Shown piece after piece: positions 5,562 to 19,682 of a DNA stretch of 41,461 nucleotides. The position numbers and the translations under genes are program-made. The stretch covers positions 1 through 41,461 of the forward strand of contig RGUL01000012.1 of the NCBI GenBank assembly GCA_010027845.1, written 5' to 3'. Numbering within the stretch: position 1 is the stretch's first letter; each line of letters begins with the position of its first letter. The DNA comes from Gammaproteobacteria bacterium (GTDB lineage: Bacteria; Pseudomonadota; Gammaproteobacteria; Steroidobacterales; Steroidobacteraceae). The notes under the pieces are model-generated. The model searched no databases. It had not been told where the DNA came from and was given only the letters and a program-made list of their open reading frames with translations.

Positions 5562-6480
5562 ACCGTCGATCGGTCGCGTTCATCTTCAGCCGAAACGCCG
5601 GCCGCGTGCTCGACGCGTTGGCCGTCCAACCCTGACCGCGCATCGCACGTAAACCGCAGTCCGCGCCGACGAGACGCGCCGCGCCGTCCGCCGGCGCCGT
5701 GCGGTAATCGTCGTTCCAGCAGTCCGCGACCCATTCGTTGGCGTTACCGAGTAAACCGAAGACGCCAAGCGGATTCGCAACCGTCGCGTGTACCGGCGCA
5801 AGGGTCGGATAGCCGTCGTGACATGGCTGGCCTTTCCAGTCGCCGAGCGCGTCGTATTTGATGTGCGTGCGATCCCAGCCGAATTTATCTTGCGCGTCGA
5901 GATCACCGAGATTCACGTAACGGCAAACGTCCGCGACATCGTCGCCCCACCAATACGCCGTTTGGGTACCGGCGCGGGCGACGTATTCCCATTCGGCCTC
6001 GCTCGGTAGTCGGTAGTGCGCCTTGGTTTTTCGACTCAACCATTCGACGTAGGCGACTGCGTCGTGCCAATTGATGCAGGTGACCGGATGATCGTCGCTC
6101 TGATCGATTTTCGGATCGGCCCACGATCGCTCGCCGTCGAACAACCATTCGGTGCCGACGAAATGCCAACAACCCGGCGCAGGCGCGTAGCCGGTCTCGG
6201 ACACGAACACGGCGAACTCGCCGCGCGTCACCTCGTATTTGCCGATCGAGAAGCCGCGCGCAATTCGCACCCGATGTTTCGGCTGTTCACGTTTCGCCCA
6301 AAATTCCGGCAAACCGAGTCGTCGTGGCTCTTCGATGTCGGCGCCCATGAGGAACGTGCCGGCAGGAATCCGCACCAATTCCGGGCATTGCGCGCAATCG
6401 CGCATCGCGGCGGCACCCGCCGCGATGGCCGACCAACCGCTAAACATCACCATCAAAAATATCGCTACGCACCGGCGCAT
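5530..6480 (-). CDS. Secreted SUMF1/FGE-fold protein, catalytic cysteines absent
   Basis: About 316 residues with a cleavable-type signal peptide (MRRCVAIFLMVMFSGWSAIA). The ATG at 6480 is chosen because AGGGG lies six bases upstream; an ATG at 6486 would leave no spacing. SUMF1 landmarks are clear: IPAGTFLMGAD, KYEVTRGEFAVFV, HPVTCINWHDAVAYVEWLS, YRLPSEAEWEYVARAGT, GLLGNANEWVADCW. The C-terminal region where formylglycine-generating enzymes carry the active-site Cys pair reads SSTRPAFRLKM, without Cys. It is therefore unlikely to be a sulfatase activator; no sulfatase gene is near. Other SUMF1-fold roles (sugar or lipid binding, oxidoreductase) are open. It is divergent from the DUF1838 genes with a 70-bp gap. 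Confidence 0.8.
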   Translation of the reverse strand: MRRCVAIFLMVMFSGWSAIAAGAAAMRDCAQCPELVRIPAGTFLMGADIEEPRRLGLPEFWAKREQPKHRVRIARGFSIGKYEVTRGEFAVFVSETGYAPAPGCWHFVGTEWLFDGERSWADPKIDQSDDHPVTCINWHDAVAYVEWLSRKTKAHYRLPSEAEWEYVARAGTQTAYWWGDDVADVCRYVNLGDLDAQDKFGWDRTHIKYDALGDWKGQPCHDGYPTLAPVHATVANPLGVFGLLGNANEWVADCWNDDYRTAPADGAARLVGADCGLRAMRGQGWTANASSTRPAFRLKMNATDRRFTFGFRVVRE

Positions 6481-6550
6481 GGTCATCCCCTGCTTTCCAC
6501 CCTGCCGATTAACCGCCAAAATCGACCGGAACCGCAACCTCGGAGACCCT

Positions 6551-7474
6551 TTGATCCACACCTTGCACGCGCTATTCGGGCCCGAGGACCCCTCCCGCCG
6601 CCAGTGGTTGCTCGGTGCTGCCGCGCTCGGCGCTGCGGCCGCGACCGCTGCCGCAGGGGCGAGCGCAACCGCGCCCGCCGACCCGACCGCGCGCCCCGCC
6701 GAGGGCATTCTGAAATTCGCTAACGCACGCGAGCGGTTTCGCACGCTGTTTCGTTTCGAGCGGGATTGGCGCGACGAAGGTACGGCGCTCTCCTGCTATC
6801 AATTTTTGATGTATGCGCTGCCCGACGGCGAGCGACCGCAACCCGTGGTGCGCTTCGAGGGAATGGAGTTTTCGTATTTTCGTCGCGTCGGCGACGACGT
6901 CTGGCGCATCCACGCGCACAACGTCAGTTACCCGCGCGATCTCGGCAACGGTGACTTCGTCACGCAGGTCGCCAACCCGTTCGGCGGTGCGGCGCTCGAC
7001 GTTGTGCCGATGAAATTATTGGGCGACCCCGGCGTGCTGCACGGACCGCGTGGATATCTGCCACTCGACGCGCCAGCGGTGCGTTGGCTCGATACTCATT
7101 TCGTCGTGCGCTACGAAGACGATCTCGTGAAAGCCGAACACATACGGCCGACGCCGGACGGTTGGCCGCGACAATTCATCGAAAGCTCGGTGAGCAGCGT
7201 CGCGCGCAAAGATTTCGACGATCCACGCGTCACGTCGTTGCGTTATCAAACCTCCGGCTTCTACGTGTTCCCGTTTCCGAAATGGATGAACATGGCTGAC
7301 CGCGCAGGTCACATGCTCGGCGCCTGGAGCGGTCGTAAACTCGCAGGACCCGAGCGTCTGCCGCGCGAATTCGCCGCGCGACTCGCACGCGAAAATCCCG
7401 AACTGCTGCGCCCGCGCTGGCAAGAATTCGACCGCCCCATACGACCGGAGCTCGCCCAATGGACCGACGCGTAA
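6551..7474 (+). CDS. Tat-exported DUF1838 protein, copy 1
   Basis: About 307 residues. A twin-arginine signal (SRRQWLLGAAALGAAAATAA) lies near residue 15. I take the TTG at 6551, which has GGAG five bases upstream; all ATGs before it lie inside the divergent SUMF1-fold gene. The mature part matches DUF1838, a family of unknown function. It is a paralogue of the next gene: both share a VVRxEGxE block, an RxHxHNxSxPR block and a YVFPxPxWMNM block. Tat export suggests folding, possibly with a cofactor, before secretion. The stop overlaps the next gene by 16 bp, so the two are co-translated. Function unknown. Confidence 0.75.
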   Translation: MIHTLHALFGPEDPSRRQWLLGAAALGAAAATAAAGASATAPADPTARPAEGILKFANARERFRTLFRFERDWRDEGTALSCYQFLMYALPDGERPQPVVRFEGMEFSYFRRVGDDVWRIHAHNVSYPRDLGNGDFVTQVANPFGGAALDVVPMKLLGDPGVLHGPRGYLPLDAPAVRWLDTHFVVRYEDDLVKAEHIRPTPDGWPRQFIESSVSSVARKDFDDPRVTSLRYQTSGFYVFPFPKWMNMADRAGHMLGAWSGRKLAGPERLPREFAARLARENPELLRPRWQEFDRPIRPELAQWTDA

Positions 7475-8322
7475 CTTTAAAAACCTTGCTCGCCGGCTCG
7501 ATCGCAGCGACGAGTTCGACCGTCGACGCGCTCGCTGCACCACACAAAACGACGCACTGGACGTCGAATTTTTTGGAGTTCGACCCGATCACACGGTTTC
7601 GTCAAGGCTTACGCGTACAACGCAGCCTCGCCGACGAGGCGGACGTACTGCATTGGTATCACTTCACGATGGTCGCAATTCCGGTCGGCAGCGCGCCCGT
7701 GCCAGTCGTACGTTGGGAGGGTATCGAGCTCTCGCATCACCGACGCATCGGTACCGACCGCTATCGCATGCACGGCCACAATCTTTCGTTTCCGCGCGCA
7801 CTCGACTCCGGCGCGTTCGTCGACGACGTGCTGAATCCGCTCACCGGCGAGCGCGTCAAAGTTCCGCCGATGGCGCTCACCTCCGACCCGGGCTCGGTGA
7901 TTTCGCCGAGTGGCATCATTCGACTCGACGCGCCGGGTGTCGCACCACGACCCGAATATCGCGTCTTCCGTCGTGAAGGTGATTACGTGAAGCTCGATGC
8001 GATTCGCGTCGCACCGGCAGGCTGGCCAGTGACCTTTATAGAAATGGGCTGCGAATCGACACCTGCGAAATCGTTCGACGACTCGCGGCTCGAGTGGTTA
8101 CCGGCGGAGGTCTCCGGTGGCTACGTGTTCCCGTGGCCGGCATGGATGAACATGGGCAAAACGCCCGGCCACATGTTCGCGATCTGGCGCGGCTATAAAT
8201 TGCGCGATATCGACGAACTACCGCTCGAGTTCCGCCGACGCGCAGCCAGCGAATTCCCGCAACTGTTGCAAGTGGATCGCAAGCAGTTCGATACTCCGAT
8301 CCCCGGACTCCACCCGGGGTGA
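7459..8322 (+). CDS. Tat-exported DUF1838 protein, copy 2
   Basis: 287 residues starting MDRRVTLKTLLAGSIAATSS, a probable Tat signal (RRVTLK). Shared landmarks with copy 1 are VPVVRWEGIELSHHRR, YRMHGHNLSFPRAL, GYVFPWPAWMNMGKTPGHMF and a C-terminal FDTPIPGL corresponding to FDRPIRPE. Identity looks moderate, so the duplication is old and the copies may have diverged in role or form a heteromer. The ATG lies 16 bp inside copy 1. Twenty-two bases after its stop the peroxiredoxin begins, so all three probably share one transcript. Function unknown. Confidence 0.8.
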   Translation: MDRRVTLKTLLAGSIAATSSTVDALAAPHKTTHWTSNFLEFDPITRFRQGLRVQRSLADEADVLHWYHFTMVAIPVGSAPVPVVRWEGIELSHHRRIGTDRYRMHGHNLSFPRALDSGAFVDDVLNPLTGERVKVPPMALTSDPGSVISPSGIIRLDAPGVAPRPEYRVFRREGDYVKLDAIRVAPAGWPVTFIEMGCESTPAKSFDDSRLEWLPAEVSGGYVFPWPAWMNMGKTPGHMFAIWRGYKLRDIDELPLEFRRRAASEFPQLLQVDRKQFDTPIPGLHPG

Positions 8323-8922: not shown

Positions 8923-11268
8923 TTGCCACCCGTGCAGACGGTGGCGGCCGACGACTCGCGGCGCCTGCCAGGCCTAGACGGCCTGCGGGCGCTCGCGGTC
9001 GTGGCGGTGATGTTCTTCCACGCCGACTTCGCGTTCGCGCGCGGCGGCTACCTCGGCGTCGATCTGTTTTTCGTGCTGTCGGGTTTCCTCATCACCCGAC
9101 TTTTGATCGACGAAGTCGAACGTAGCGGCACGGTCGCACCGCTCGCGTTCTACGCCCGCCGGGCACGGCGCTTGCTGCCCGCGCTCTTCATGATGGTCGC
9201 GGCGGCGACCATCCTCGCCTGTGTCGCCGCACCGGATGCGCTCGGTCGGTTGCGCGACGATACGTTCGCCTCCGCGCTTTTTTTGACCAATTGGCACTTC
9301 ATCGCCCAGCAAACCACTTACTTCGAATTCACCGGTCGCCAACCGTTACTACAACATCTTTGGTCGTTGGCGATCGAGGAGCAGTTCTATCTACTCTGGC
9401 CGCTGGTGGTGCTCGGATTTCTGCGCGTCGGAGGCCGCATCGCACTCGGCTATGCCGCGATCGTGCTCGCCATCGCTTCCGCACTCTGGATGCACACGCT
9501 CGCAACGCAGCTCGGCTATCCCGAACGCGTCGACGTAAGTCGTGTTTACTTCGGCACCGACACCCACGCGCTAGGCTTGCTCGCCGGCGCTGCGCTCGCT
9601 GCGTTCGCGCGTCGAATCACCGACGACGCGGTGCTGCGCACACGGCTCGCGCATGCCGCGGGCTTCACGGCCGGTTCGGGTGCTCTGCTCGCGACGCTCG
9701 GTCTATTTGCGACCCTCGGCGAGAACAGCGGCTGGCTGTACCCTTATGGCTTCGCTGCCGCCGCACTCTGCGGCGTGCTGTTGATCGTCGCCTGCATTCA
9801 GCCGGGCGGCAGCTTCGGCGCGCTACTCGATCTGCAGCCCTTGCGCTGGCTGGGTGAGCGCTCGTACGGCATCTATCTTTGGCATTGGCCGATCTATCTG
9901 TTCACGCGACCCGAGATCGATCTGCCACTCGATCCCTGGCCGGCGTTCGCGCTGCGTATTTCTTTGACGCTCGGCGTCGCCGCGCTCTCGTATCGCTACG
10001 TCGAAGCACCGATCCTCGGTCGCGCGACGACCGGTCGAGTACTCGCACCGCGTTACGCCATCGGGCTCGTGGTCGCTGCGATCGCCGTCGCGCAGGCGTT
10101 CGCGCTGCGCACCGACTACGCCGCCGCACAGGCGGCACGCGCCGCCGCCGAAGCAGCCTTGCTTGCGAAGATCGAGCCGCCGCGCGCACGCGAAGACACC
10201 GTACTGCTCGAGCGTGGCGTGCGCTACGCCGGCGGCGTGACGGTGGTCGGCGACTCGGTCGCGCTAGGCGCTCGCGCGACTGTAGAGGCGACGCTGGACG
10301 ACGCCGTCGTTTACGCCCAAGTCGGCTGGCAGGCCGCGGACATGCTGCAACTTTTGCAAGGCATCCAGGCGGCCGGCGAGCTACGGCCAAAAGTTTTGAT
10401 CCACCTCGGCACCAACGGCTACGTCACCGAACAGCAGTTGCGCAAGATGCTCGATCTGCTGCGCGATCGCGAGCAAGTGCTGTTCATGAACTCGCGCGTA
10501 CCGCGACGCTGGATGACCGCGAACAACGCGCTGCTGAAAGAAGTCATTCCCCGCTATCCGAACGCCGTGCTGATCGATTGGGAGCGCGCGTCGGCGAACA
10601 AACCGGAGTTTTTCGTCACCGACGGCATCCATCTCTCGAGCGCGGGTAAACGCGCCTACGTCGCCGGCATCGTGAAAGCCGGACGATTTCGCAAGTTGAC
10701 CGTCGACGTCGCCGTACCCGCCGATTTGCGCGACGCACTGCGGCCGGTGGAACCCGAGCCGTCCGAACCACAAGATTATTCACCGACGCTGGTGCGCTAC
10801 CCCGAACCGATCGCAGCCGATTCTTTTTGGCGCGAAATGGCACGCTGCGAGTCCAACTCCAATTGGAGTGATGGTGGCGAGTTCGCGGGTGGACTCGGAA
10901 TTTATGTCGGCTCGTGGCGTGAGTGGGGGGGTGGCGAATTTGCCGAGACGCCCGACAAAGCTACACCCGAGCAACAAATCGTCATCGCCAATCGGATCTC
11001 AACCCAAGGCTGGCTACGGCCGGACGGCAGCATGCAAGAGCCCGTGGGATTTTTCGGTTGGGGTTGTCTGCGCGTCATCGGCCGACCGACGCTGATGATG
11101 TTCACGCCCGACAGTTTGCTCAAACAAAAATTCCGGCCCGGCCAACGCGGGCAGGCGGTGCGCGATTTGCAAACTTTGCTCGAACTACCCGCCACCGGTG
11201 TCTATGACACCGCGACCGCGGCGGCCACCGCTGCAGCGACCGCAGCCCCGATCAAACCGGCGACATGA
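8923..11268 (+). CDS. Acyltransferase_3-SGNH-Rpf-like muralytic-PG-binding fusion protein
   Basis: 781 residues from a TTG at 8923; GTG codons at 8932 and 8941 are alternatives and no ribosome site decides. Residues 12-385 are an OafA/Acyltransferase_3 membrane domain (His33 in MFFHADF, RRARRLLPAL, WSLAIEEQFYLLWP, ERSYGIYLWHWP) that moves acyl groups across the membrane. Residues 435-590 are an SGNH domain with GDS (Ser445), GTN (496-498) and DGIH (Asp567, His570). Residues 634-718 match the resuscitation-promoting-factor lysozyme-like domain: FWREMARCESNSNW with Glu643, GGLGIYVGSWREWGG, QQIVIANRISTQGW and a second Cys in GWGC. Residues 738-770 look like a peptidoglycan-binding repeat. Expected role: O-acylation of peptidoglycan or a periplasmic glycan, with wall cleavage in the same chain. 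It overlaps the next gene (ATGA). Confidence 0.85.
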   Translation: MPPVQTVAADDSRRLPGLDGLRALAVVAVMFFHADFAFARGGYLGVDLFFVLSGFLITRLLIDEVERSGTVAPLAFYARRARRLLPALFMMVAAATILACVAAPDALGRLRDDTFASALFLTNWHFIAQQTTYFEFTGRQPLLQHLWSLAIEEQFYLLWPLVVLGFLRVGGRIALGYAAIVLAIASALWMHTLATQLGYPERVDVSRVYFGTDTHALGLLAGAALAAFARRITDDAVLRTRLAHAAGFTAGSGALLATLGLFATLGENSGWLYPYGFAAAALCGVLLIVACIQPGGSFGALLDLQPLRWLGERSYGIYLWHWPIYLFTRPEIDLPLDPWPAFALRISLTLGVAALSYRYVEAPILGRATTGRVLAPRYAIGLVVAAIAVAQAFALRTDYAAAQAARAAAEAALLAKIEPPRAREDTVLLERGVRYAGGVTVVGDSVALGARATVEATLDDAVVYAQVGWQAADMLQLLQGIQAAGELRPKVLIHLGTNGYVTEQQLRKMLDLLRDREQVLFMNSRVPRRWMTANNALLKEVIPRYPNAVLIDWERASANKPEFFVTDGIHLSSAGKRAYVAGIVKAGRFRKLTVDVAVPADLRDALRPVEPEPSEPQDYSPTLVRYPEPIAADSFWREMARCESNSNWSDGGEFAGGLGIYVGSWREWGGGEFAETPDKATPEQQIVIANRISTQGWLRPDGSMQEPVGFFGWGCLRVIGRPTLMMFTPDSLLKQKFRPGQRGQAVRDLQTLLELPATGVYDTATAAATAAATAAPIKPAT

Positions 11269-12509
11269 GAGGCCGAGCGAGTTTTTTGATCGTGGCGCTG
11301 ATCGCGAGTGTTTTCGCCTCCTTGCCGCCGATCGCATTCGCTGCAGACGATCCGCTCGTTTGTCCTGCCGACGCGCATCGCCCGCTACGAATGCGAGACG
11401 ACGAACTTCGGCCGACGATCATCGCCCGCGCCGCCGATGCACGACCGCTTCCGCGCAGTGTCGCCTTATGGGGCGACAGTCACCTTGCTGCACCGACGTT
11501 CGCAGCCGAACTGCAGCGCGTACTCGAGGCGCGCGGCCTCGCGGTACGGCGTAACTTCATCGCACCCTACTTCGACCGCCCGGGCGTCGGGATCGCCGTG
11601 CGAAACTTTTGTGCCAGTCGCAACTGGCGCTTCGTCGCCGCGTACACAACAAAAAAATCCGACGGCAGTGCCGATCTCGGTCCGGCGCTCGCCAAATTCG
11701 AGACCAACACACCCGACGCCTATCTTTGGTTGGACTTGCGCGACGCGGACGGCGTAGCCGACGCCTTCGGCCTACGGCTCGCCTTCGAAGCACACGCGGC
11801 CGACGACGGCACTGCGGCGACCATCGAACTCGTGTTCGACGACGACGCGCCCCGTCGCATCTCACTAGAAGGTGATGCACAGGGCGTCGGCGAGCTCACG
11901 CTCGCACAAGACCGTGCGATCGGCACACTGCGCTTACGCGTTCTCACGGGGCGGGTCGCGCTGCGCGGTATCGCGCCTTGGCGCCCCTCGCTCTCGCCAC
12001 AAACGGTGCGACTCGACGTGTTCGCGATTCCCGGCGCGACGGTCACGCCATGGTCCGAGCTCGATCCTGCGATTCTCGCGGCTGCGCCGGGCATCGCGTC
12101 ACCGGAATTGGTGGTGCTCGAGTACGGCACCAACGAGGCGAACAATGCCTTCGAACCGCGCAACTATCGCGCTGCATTATCGAAAGCGGTGACGAATTTA
12201 CGCGCGGCGTTTCCGCAAGCCGAATGCGTCTTACTCGGCCCACCCGATCGCGGCGTTCGCGCGCGCAAAGGTCGCGTCGATCGACTGCGTCATGCGCGCT
12301 TGCATGTGCGAATCAACGAAATTCAAGCACAGATCGCGGTGGAGCGCGGCTGTCGCCACTTCGATTGGCAACGGTTCATGGGTGGTGCGGGCAGCGCGTA
12401 CGAGTGGGCGCGTGCAAGGCCAGCTTTGATGTCGGGCGATCTCACGCACTTGAGCCGCGACGGTACACGTCGCAGTGCCAACGCCTTCGCAAATTTTTTG
12501 GGTTGGTGA
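11265..12509 (+). CDS. Secreted SGNH/GDSL hydrolase
   Basis: 414 residues with a signal peptide (about 1-27, ending AFA). The nucleophile motif is GDSH (Ser72), an EYGTNEANNAF block stands for block III, and the C-terminal DLTHLSRDG gives Asp392 and His395. Between them, about residues 145-240, is a beta-rich insertion. SGNH enzymes with such a jelly-roll insertion are often cell-wall or glycan esterases or acyltransferases, for example Ape/PatB types; that comparison is from memory. ATGA coupling to the acyltransferase fusion suggests they add, transfer or remove the same acyl group. It could be an esterase that reverses the modification. Convergent with the monooxygenase gene, one base apart. 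Confidence 0.82.
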   Translation: MRGRASFLIVALIASVFASLPPIAFAADDPLVCPADAHRPLRMRDDELRPTIIARAADARPLPRSVALWGDSHLAAPTFAAELQRVLEARGLAVRRNFIAPYFDRPGVGIAVRNFCASRNWRFVAAYTTKKSDGSADLGPALAKFETNTPDAYLWLDLRDADGVADAFGLRLAFEAHAADDGTAATIELVFDDDAPRRISLEGDAQGVGELTLAQDRAIGTLRLRVLTGRVALRGIAPWRPSLSPQTVRLDVFAIPGATVTPWSELDPAILAAAPGIASPELVVLEYGTNEANNAFEPRNYRAALSKAVTNLRAAFPQAECVLLGPPDRGVRARKGRVDRLRHARLHVRINEIQAQIAVERGCRHFDWQRFMGGAGSAYEWARARPALMSGDLTHLSRDGTRRSANAFANFLGW

Positions 12510-18392: not shown

Positions 18393-19682
18393 ATGAAAAC
18401 CGGTTTTATCGGTCTCGGGGCGATGGGCGTGCCGATGGCGCGCAATCTGCACAAAGCCGGTCTGCTGCACGGCGTGTGGAATCGCAGCGCCGACAAAGCA
18501 CACGCGCTCGCCGCCGAGCTCGGCTGCACGGCACCGGTGACGCTCGCTGCGCTCGCGAGCGAATGCGATGCACTCGTGATCTGCGTCGCCGCCGATGCTG
18601 ACGTACTCGCCGTGATCGACGCCCTCGTGCCTGCCGTGCGCGCCGGCACGCTCGTCATCGACTGTTCGACGGTGAGCGCGAACACGGCGCGGCGCGCTGC
18701 CGAATTGCTCGCGGCGCGTGGTGCGCATTTTCTCGACTGCCCCGTGAGCGGCGGCACCGAAGGCGCAAAGCACGGCACGCTCGCCGTGATGTGCGGCGGC
18801 GAAGCAGCGACGTTCGAAGCTGCGCGGCCGGTGCTCGAAGCGATGGGCAAGACCGTGCGCTGGTTCGGGCCGAGCGGCGCCGGTCAAAGCACCAAAGCCA
18901 CCAATCAAATCATGTGCGCCGGTATCATTCGCGCCGTCGGCGAGGCGATGGCGTTCGCACGTGCACAAGGTCTGCCGCTCGAGCGTGTAGTCGAGACGCT
19001 AGGCCAAGGCGCGGGCTCCTCGTGGTACTTCGTGCACCGCGCGCCGTTCATGATCCGCGAAGCATATCCACCCGGCTTCCGCATCAAGCTGCACGCCAAA
19101 GATTTGCAGATTTGTCGCGAGATGGCTGCAGCGAGCGGTGCGGCGCTGCCGGTGGTCGAGGACGTGCTGCGCGAATATACGACCTTGATCGATGCGGGTT
19201 ACGGCGACGAAGACATCTCGGCGATCTATCGCTTGAAGAGCGAATTGTTCGCACCGTTCGAAAACCCGAATGCGCAGACCATCGCCGCGCTGCTGCGTCG
19301 CATCCGCACCATCGCGGTCGTCGGCCTCAGTGCCGACCCGTCCCGTCCGAGCCACGGTGTCGCGAAAGCTTTGCAAAATTTCGGCTATCGCATCATCCCG
19401 GTGACGCCGGGCGCGAGCGAAATCTTGGGCGAGCGTTGCGTGCCATCGCTCGATCGTGTGCACGAAGTGCTCGCGCCGGACGAACGTGTCGACCTCGTCG
19501 ACGTATTTCGCAAGTCGGAACACGTTGCAGCGATCGTCGACGATTGCATTCGTCTAAGAATGCCGGCGCTGTGGTTGCAGGACGGTGTGATCGACGATGC
19601 TGCTGCGGCCCGCGCGCGCAACGCCGGCATAGTGACGATTCAAGATCGCTGTCTCTATCGCGACCGAGCCGCGCTCGCATGA
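18393..19682 (+). CDS. 3-hydroxyisobutyrate dehydrogenase-like / CoA-binding domain fusion
   Basis: 429 residues. Residues 1-285 are a beta-hydroxyacid dehydrogenase: GFIGLGAMGVPMARNL (NAD(P) site), DCPVSGGTEGAKHGTLAVM (substrate site), the catalytic Lys in GQSTKATNQIM, and KLHAKDLQICREMA. Residues 300-425 are a separate CoA_binding_2 (YccU-like) Rossmann domain: TIAVVGLSADPSRPSHGVAK, YRIIPVTPG and LWLQDGVIDDAAAARARNAG. Each is normally a stand-alone protein. The dehydrogenase oxidises small beta-hydroxyacids (3-hydroxyisobutyrate, tartronate semialdehyde, similar); the second domain is thought to bind CoA or an acyl-CoA. It is first of an operon with dapF, which it overlaps (ATGA). Confidence 0.85.
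   Translation: MKTGFIGLGAMGVPMARNLHKAGLLHGVWNRSADKAHALAAELGCTAPVTLAALASECDALVICVAADADVLAVIDALVPAVRAGTLVIDCSTVSANTARRAAELLAARGAHFLDCPVSGGTEGAKHGTLAVMCGGEAATFEAARPVLEAMGKTVRWFGPSGAGQSTKATNQIMCAGIIRAVGEAMAFARAQGLPLERVVETLGQGAGSSWYFVHRAPFMIREAYPPGFRIKLHAKDLQICREMAAASGAALPVVEDVLREYTTLIDAGYGDEDISAIYRLKSELFAPFENPNAQTIAALLRRIRTIAVVGLSADPSRPSHGVAKALQNFGYRIIPVTPGASEILGERCVPSLDRVHEVLAPDERVDLVDVFRKSEHVAAIVDDCIRLRMPALWLQDGVIDDAAAARARNAGIVTIQDRCLYRDRAALA

Follow-up and report, generated by a model that had tools for sequence, protein, structure and literature searches.

A single gene on a 41,461-nucleotide stretch of DNA from a Gammaproteobacterium of the family Steroidobacteraceae (contig RGUL01000012.1, positions 1 to 41,461; hereafter the window) probably encodes an O-acetyltransferase of the OatA type that is fused to a lytic transglycosylase of phage or actinobacterial type and is paired, in this Gram-negative host, with an esterase of the Ape1 type encoded by the next gene. 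The fusion protein joins a membrane-embedded acyltransferase domain (AT3), an SGNH domain, an Rpf-type domain and a short tail (Table 1). The window corresponds to contig C14 of a 2.6 Mb genome (182 contigs, ~91% complete), and a GTG codon three codons past the called TTG is a possible alternative start of the fusion. The parts of the fusion and its partner are known, but their combination and the host group are new.

An earlier note on the window, made from the sequence alone, had read the protein as an Acyltransferase_3 core, an SGNH domain with the triad Ser445, Asp567 and His570, an Rpf-like domain with a catalytic glutamate and a pair of cysteines, and a peptidoglycan-binding repeat. The acyltransferase is borne out by a match to Acyl_transf_3 at residues 16-357 (E 9.4e-31), and the R-X10-H (R22/H33) and RXXR (R79-R83) motifs, as defined for AT3 domains in PMC9833829, are present. 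In an alignment of the window protein with five relatives (identities 76, 60, 58, 58 and 42%), R22, H33, R79, R80, R82, R83, W147 and E152 of the AT3 part are invariant in all six sequences, as are S445, N498, D567 and H570 of the SGNH part; the triad lies where the note had put it. The hydrophobic peak at residues 371-398 has a counterpart in all five relatives, judged by hydropathy only. Searched against solved structures, the SGNH part matched 6vjp (E 1.8e-18) and 6wn9 (E 4.8e-18), entries named ‘Acetyltransferase’ that we take to be OatA of S. aureus; matches to the other acyltransferase chains 5ug1 and 5ufy were far weaker (E 0.009), and Lipase_GDSL_2 of Pfam gave a weak match under its cut-off. 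A profile built from the six sequences reached 2e-26 for 6vjp, 1.2e-26 for 6wn9 and 4e-11 for RpfB. Judged by these matches, the SGNH part belongs with the O-acetyltransferases of peptidoglycan, and peptidoglycan would be its acceptor, with O-acetylation at C6 of N-acetylmuramic acid (MurNAc). The best-ranked plasmid match was an AT3-SGNH protein of 599 amino acids without an Rpf part from Miltoncostaea oceani (Actinomycetota), 42% identical over the aligned parts. On that plasmid (L052, 4520-9832) a GDSL-like protein, under the cut-off, is encoded two genes further on, and the two genes are possibly another transferase/esterase pair.

The Rpf part matched the Transglycosylas family PF06737 at residues 631-697 with 48.3 bits against a cut-off of 27 (E 1.6e-12), and the same family was found above cut-off in all five relatives. 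RpfB, RpfC and RpfE were its matches among solved structures (RpfB 1xsf, E 5e-7), and a profile-profile comparison by HHalign with five classical Rpf domains gave a probability of 99.4% and E 8e-22. This classical set consists of four actinobacterial sequences and one from a Rhodococcus phage out of six fetched, the Gordonia sequence (L053) being without a motif row. Cys642, Glu643, W648, L658, I660, I686, W713 and Cys715 are invariant in the six aligned sequences, and a fragmentary copy in genome G008 retains the first cysteine and the glutamate. The Rpf-like domain, its glutamate and its cysteine pair thus all stand as the earlier note had proposed them, and Cys642 and Cys715 would form a disulfide. 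Of the outcomes that the note had named as refutations, neither a missing profile match nor a loss of Glu643 in close homologues was encountered. In RpfC, the pocket around Glu16 is lined by Val12, Trp21, Leu33, Phe35, Ile58 and Trp73, and Cys15 and Cys76 form the disulfide, according to the part of PMC4648573 drawn on here. Allowing for the numbering offset and a two-residue loop deletion, Val12, Trp21, Leu33 and Phe35 fall on M639, W648, L658 and I660, and Ile58 and Trp73 can be mapped by motif to what are likely their counterparts, I686 and W713.

The Rpf part was the best conserved segment in all five comparisons with relatives; between the window and G006 its identity is 93% (AT3 78%), and between the window and G218, a genome of another genus, 51% (AT3 44%). 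The ratio of nonsynonymous to synonymous change (omega) points in the same direction: for G020 against G004 it was 0.073 in the Rpf part, 0.18 in AT3 and 0.17 in SGNH, and for G015 against G004 0.061, 0.17 and 0.15, respectively. These are simple counting estimates over 87 codons, and the Rpf value was the lowest in the protein in two of three pairs, counting the pairs that could be computed. Between the window and G006 synonymous change in the Rpf part was saturated, so that omega could not be computed, and its nonsynonymous change (dN 0.057) was the lowest of five segments. The complete domain order, for which the earlier note had suggested a survey, was seen again in G004, G006, G015 and G218, and in G020 up to the end of the tail, where the contig and with it the row in the alignment stop. 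As the order recurs in other genomes, the fusion is not a product of chance or of assembly.

The gene directly downstream encodes a protein whose best match among solved structures by sequence was 4k3u (E 4e-9), followed by 8gkd and 8gld. A structural model of moderate confidence (predicted local distance difference test, pLDDT, 64.7) retrieved five Ape1 chains as the top five Foldseek matches (E 3e-14 to 2e-13; next match 2e-8), all from entries titled peptidoglycan O-acetylesterase. The model shows a beta-rich block between two parts of the SGNH fold, and the five aligned Ape1-like sequences all keep S72, N290, D392 and H395. On the strength of sequence and model, the partner enzyme probably removes acetyl groups from the wall. 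The stop codon of the fusion overlaps the start of this gene, which suggests translational coupling, and a like overlap is present in G006 (L009) and G015 (L037). The Ape1-like partner, like the OatA likeness of the SGNH part and the occurrence of the same Rpf variant on viral contigs, goes beyond what the earlier note had recognised.

Fusion and partner also share their distribution. The C-terminal 170 amino acids of the window protein were found in six of 60 genomes (own included), all from the genus (G000, G004, G006, G008, G015 and G020), and the Ape1-like protein in 6 of the 24 genus genomes, exactly those six; completeness is 90% or more and contamination 5% or less in 12 of the 24, five of which have the Ape1-like protein. 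The surroundings of the pair differ. G006 (stretch L036) has all 15 window genes in common with the window, and the gene order of the window is kept on JAFMJH010000002.1 (L009), a contig of a metagenome-assembled genome of Steroidobacteraceae. Of the 15 window genes, the fusion and the Ape1-like gene alone have matches in the stretches taken from G015, G004, G008 and G218, and the stretches of G020 and G021 match the fusion alone. Neighbours in the other settings include an SSF symporter, an FGGY kinase, a dehydroquinase, an ADP-ribosylglycohydrolase and a DUF817 protein. In G218 (L043) the order is swapped, with the Ape1-like gene upstream of the fusion on the same strand, and in G020 the Ape1-like match lies at the start of another contig. 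A shared pair amid unshared neighbours indicates that the two genes behave as a unit. G021 holds the AT3 part without any SGNH, Rpf or Ape1-like match. There, the AT3 frame (L040, 2-2125, minus strand) continues without a change of frame into the C-terminal portion of an RND transporter (ACR_tran), a joint that may be a misassembly.

Beyond the genus, PF06737 exceeded its cut-off in 6 of 296 genomes of the order and in 6 of 217 of the family, with G008 below cut-off in addition. In the class (1 of 369) and phylum (1 of 398) the single positive was the window's own genome, which agrees with the rarity in proteobacteria that the earlier note had supposed; among 14 known genomes used as a control, only Corynebacterium glutamicum was positive. 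The OatA-type SGNH profile picked out 7 of 217 family genomes, which are also the seven with an Rpf match, and 1 of 274 class genomes. The draws for class, phylum, order and family overlap, hence these counts are not independent. Below the threshold, the phylum draw also held a 211-amino-acid frame in a genome of the same class (L044; G1015:C1:73501-73617) that scored 22.8 bits for PF06737.

Stand-alone relatives of the C-terminal module came to light on viral contigs. Searching these with the fusion profile gave 125 matches, and the best 80 of them were retained (L067-L146). These are mostly short frames that read GGLGI instead of the GGLQF of classical Rpf domains. By tblastn coordinates, a glycine takes the place of the glutamine of GGLQF in all 80 of these best loci. 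The cysteine, glutamate and tryptophan are likewise kept in 80 of 80, a count that is biased, since these residues are part of one of two search patterns, and an AT3 motif was found in none of the 80 Rpf frames (best 80 of 125 relatives). The protein of L069 is 46% identical to window residues 623-768 over 158 columns, extending through the tail, and its identity to the proteins of G015 and G218 is 43% over 182 and 41% over 183, respectively. Five viral loci were scanned further. Two of them (L067 and L069) carry a second SLT-type domain above cut-off and have N-termini that look, by eye, like signal peptides. The genes adjoining the Rpf match include a terminase (L068), a prohead protease (L070), a primase and ThyX (L067), a nucleotide-sugar epimerase (L072) and a DUF932 protein (L069). 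From the terminase, prohead protease and primase/ThyX neighbours, L067, L068 and L070 look like phage; the viral label of L069 rests on its source collection. In a collection of phage records 103 matched the L069 protein, nearly all from Mycobacterium or Rhodococcus phages, and the best covered, Actinomycetia phage DSL-LC01, showed 31% identity to its tail-SLT part. Taken together, the viral and phage matches mark the whole Rpf-plus-tail module as being of phage or actinobacterial type. The third-position guanine-cytosine content of the module in the window (0.61, against 0.77 in AT3 and 0.79 in SGNH) weakly fits a foreign origin. A tree of the Rpf part with six fusions, 80 viral and five classical sequences placed the fusions with L067-L072 at a support of 0.23; four of its 80 viral rows were in the wrong frame.

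Table 1 Coordinates of the fusion gene, its parts and the partner gene in the window. The remarks give residues, conserved positions and the evidence used for the assignment.
Feature	Position	Strand	Remarks
AT3-SGNH-Rpf fusion coding sequence	8923..11268	+	single open frame, 781 amino acids, TTG start as called
Acyltransferase_3 membrane domain	8968..9993	+	residues 16-357; Pfam; motifs R22-X10-H33, RXXR (R79/R80-R82/R83)
Hydrophobic stretch	10033..10116	+	residues 371-398; hydropathy peak; probable 11th membrane helix, which would put the C-terminus in the periplasm
OatA-type SGNH O-acetyltransferase domain	10240..10680	+	residues 440-586; Ser445, Asn498, Asp567, His570; chains 6vjp/6wn9
Pro/Glu-rich linker	10693..10809	+	residues 591-629; from the sequence; 64% identity to G006
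Rpf-type transglycosylase domain	10810..11070	+	residues 630-716; Cys642, Glu643, Cys715; PF06737, RpfB 1xsf, HHalign
Predicted catalytic Glu643 codon	10849..10851	+	from the sequence
Tail	11071..11265	+	residues 717-781; PG_binding_1-like, sub-cut-off; common to proteins on viral contigs
Ape1-like peptidoglycan O-acetylesterase	11265..12509	+	414 amino acids; Ser72, Asn290, Asp392, His395; 4k3u, Foldseek
Stop/start codon overlap of fusion and Ape1-like gene	11265..11268	+	4 bases

How these activities might work together can be outlined from the described enzymes. AT3 domains move acetyl groups across the membrane and SGNH domains transfer them, as set out in the cited parts of PMC9558356 and PMC6174289. 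Lytic transglycosylases form 1,6-anhydroMurNAc by way of the C6 hydroxyl of MurNAc, so that O-acetylation at C6 blocks them and Ape lifts the block (PMC6174289 and PMC7083599, in the parts used here), and RpfA, B, C and E of S. coelicolor are said to act as lytic transglycosylases in a passage of PMC11356341 that refers to the work of others. In the fusion, the AT3 part would accordingly hand the acetyl group of acetyl-CoA through the inner membrane to the SGNH part in the periplasm, which would attach it to the MurNAc hydroxyl at C6. The Rpf part is tethered to this chain and would cleave the bond between MurNAc and N-acetylglucosamine, in a reaction that needs this hydroxyl free, and the Ape1-type esterase would free it again and re-open sites. 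Since the SGNH and Rpf parts would need the same hydroxyl, acetylation could limit where and how far the attached cutter goes. It may therefore be tentatively proposed, as a reading that we hold to be plausible rather than probable, that two enzymes in one membrane protein compete for the C6 oxygen of MurNAc while the esterase un-caps it, which would amount to a self-limiting peptidoglycan cutter assembled from a captured transglycosylase, a Gram-positive-type O-acetyltransferase and a Gram-negative-type esterase. Linked activities have a precedent in the Ape1 of N. meningitidis, which needs the transglycosylase LtgA for full activity, as reported in the cited part of PMC7083599.

Several observations weigh against the main reading, an O-acetyltransferase with an attached cutter, and chief among them, as regards a simple active Rpf, are two altered motifs. 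The glutamine of GGLQF is replaced in all six fusions (by glycine in five and by alanine in G218), and each of them has a TGNG loop shortened by two residues, although both features are kept in the five classical domains; binding or rate may therefore differ, and cutting should not be taken for granted. The model of the SGNH-Rpf-tail region, made from a two-sequence alignment, reached a pLDDT of 45, too poor to be of use, so that the Rpf part, a putative cutter, is identified through hidden Markov models and HHalign. None of the equivalog cut-offs of NCBIfam was reached by the fusion (best SucT with 92 bits against 1275; RpfC 26 against 200). The peptidoglycan-binding repeat of the earlier note was not borne out at family level: PG_binding_1 (PF01471) is the only Pfam match in the window tail, with 20.4 bits against a cut-off of 23, three of the other four tails scored 14.6, 14.8 and 12.9 bits and that of G218 had no match, and none of the five thus passed the cut-off. 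Among solved structures, a profile of nine tails had no match with an E value under 0.2, and a likeness of the tail to PG_binding_1 is not established. Of the two C-terminal families for which the note had proposed a profile search, the transglycosylase was therefore recovered and the binding module was not. In G218, 123 bases separate the two genes, without overlap. With the pair in only 6 of 24 genus genomes, some of them incomplete, it is an accessory trait. The acyl group and the acceptor could also differ from acetyl and MurNAc.

The altered motifs could also be read as signs that the Rpf-type domain does not cut and instead anchors the O-acetyltransferase on the glycan strand, with Ape1 setting the level of acetylation. 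The altered subsites could still bind, and the protein already has an enzymatic job. We regard such an anchor as unlikely, though it deserves serious attention, because the glutamate and the cysteine pair stay invariant down to 42% overall identity and omega is lowest in the Rpf part in two pairs. Furthermore, stand-alone viral relatives carry the same glycine in 80 of 80 loci along with the glutamate (80 of 80, the glutamate being partly in one search pattern), and with no other job to do they are likely enzymes. Conservation and these relatives thus favour cutting over mere positioning. Another envelope glycan, such as an exopolysaccharide, an O-antigen or a secondary polymer, might be modified and bound if the Rpf and Ape-like parts had drifted too; AT3-SGNH proteins act on many glycans (PMC9558356, in the part cited), and the relevant passage of PMC1199599 allows that the Ape-like proteins of a bacterium that degrades xylan are xylan esterases. 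This is rather improbable, as the OatA-type SGNH, Rpf and Ape1 parts all point to peptidoglycan, their best solved relatives are peptidoglycan enzymes, and no polysaccharide gene cluster was found among the neighbours scanned. An artefact of assembly or contamination, or a degenerate passenger, might be suspected from draft genomes in which the copies of G008 and G021 are fragmented and the AT3 frame of G021 runs into a transporter. Complete copies in G004, G006, G015 and G218, a further one in G020 cut by the contig end, at least three genomic settings, purifying selection and the long neighbourhood in common with the Steroidobacteraceae contig make this explanation very improbable.

Elsewhere in the window, on the plus strand, two overlapping tandem DUF1838 genes (6239-7474 and 7459-8322) lie just upstream of a peroxiredoxin gene, and the tandem is also found together in L009/L036. 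At 18393-19682 (plus strand) a 3-hydroxyisobutyrate-dehydrogenase-like protein (NAD_binding_2, NAD_binding_11) is joined to CoA_binding_2 in one frame.

Compared with described systems, the fusion shares with Gram-positive OatA the AT3 domain and an SGNH domain of the same type (6vjp, E 1.8e-18), including motifs and triad, which by hydropathy would also lie outside the cytoplasm, but differs in its Gram-negative host and the extra C-terminal Rpf module. With the Rpf family PF06737 it has in common the profile match over cut-off, the glutamate, the cysteine pair and hydrophobic residues at the mappable pocket positions, whereas the exchange of glutamine for glycine or alanine, the TGNG loop shortened by two residues, an insert of about 13 residues before GWGC and the attached membrane acyltransferase set it apart; the assignment is to the Rpf domain family by sequence, not to resuscitation factors. 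The viral proteins (L067-L072) have the same Rpf variant and kind of tail, yet they stand alone, in L067 and L069 with the second SLT-type domain, and lack the AT3 motif. The partner resembles Ape1 (4k3u; 8gkd/8gld of C. jejuni) in its SGNH triad, in the beta-rich block of the model and in adjoining an O-acetyltransferase gene, while its identity in structural alignment is 18-20% and its neighbour is an OatA-type fusion rather than PatA/PatB. The clustering of transferase and esterase genes follows the logic of the Gram-negative PatA/PatB/Ape cluster (PMC1199599, in the part cited), except that here the transglycosylase domain lies within the transferase and the MBOAT protein PatA (PF03062) had no match in the window's own, ~91% complete genome. 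The cited part of PMC9833829 lists AT3 domains fused to SGNH or alanine racemase domains and, in Eukarya, to domains of other kinds; the AT3 review PMC9558356 does not use the word transglycosylase in its main text, and no described AT3-Rpf protein was found in the open-licence PMC literature among the matches listed.

The pair breaks the usual split between OatA for Gram-positive bacteria and PatA/PatB with Ape for Gram-negative bacteria, and it places an Rpf-type domain in a Gammaproteobacterium, Steroidobacteraceae being a family of that class. An early survey (PMC1084345, in the part cited) confined the Rpf family to actinobacteria, and a 2025 paper (PMC12090717) speaks, in the part cited, of Rpf potentially in other phyla, so that an Rpf domain outside actinobacteria would not by itself be new. 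Control of lytic transglycosylases at the level of the substrate has been ascribed to O-acetylation, and in the described systems cited here transferase, cutter and esterase are separate. With transferase and putative cutter on one chain and the esterase encoded by the next gene, this idea of substrate control becomes testable on purified pieces.

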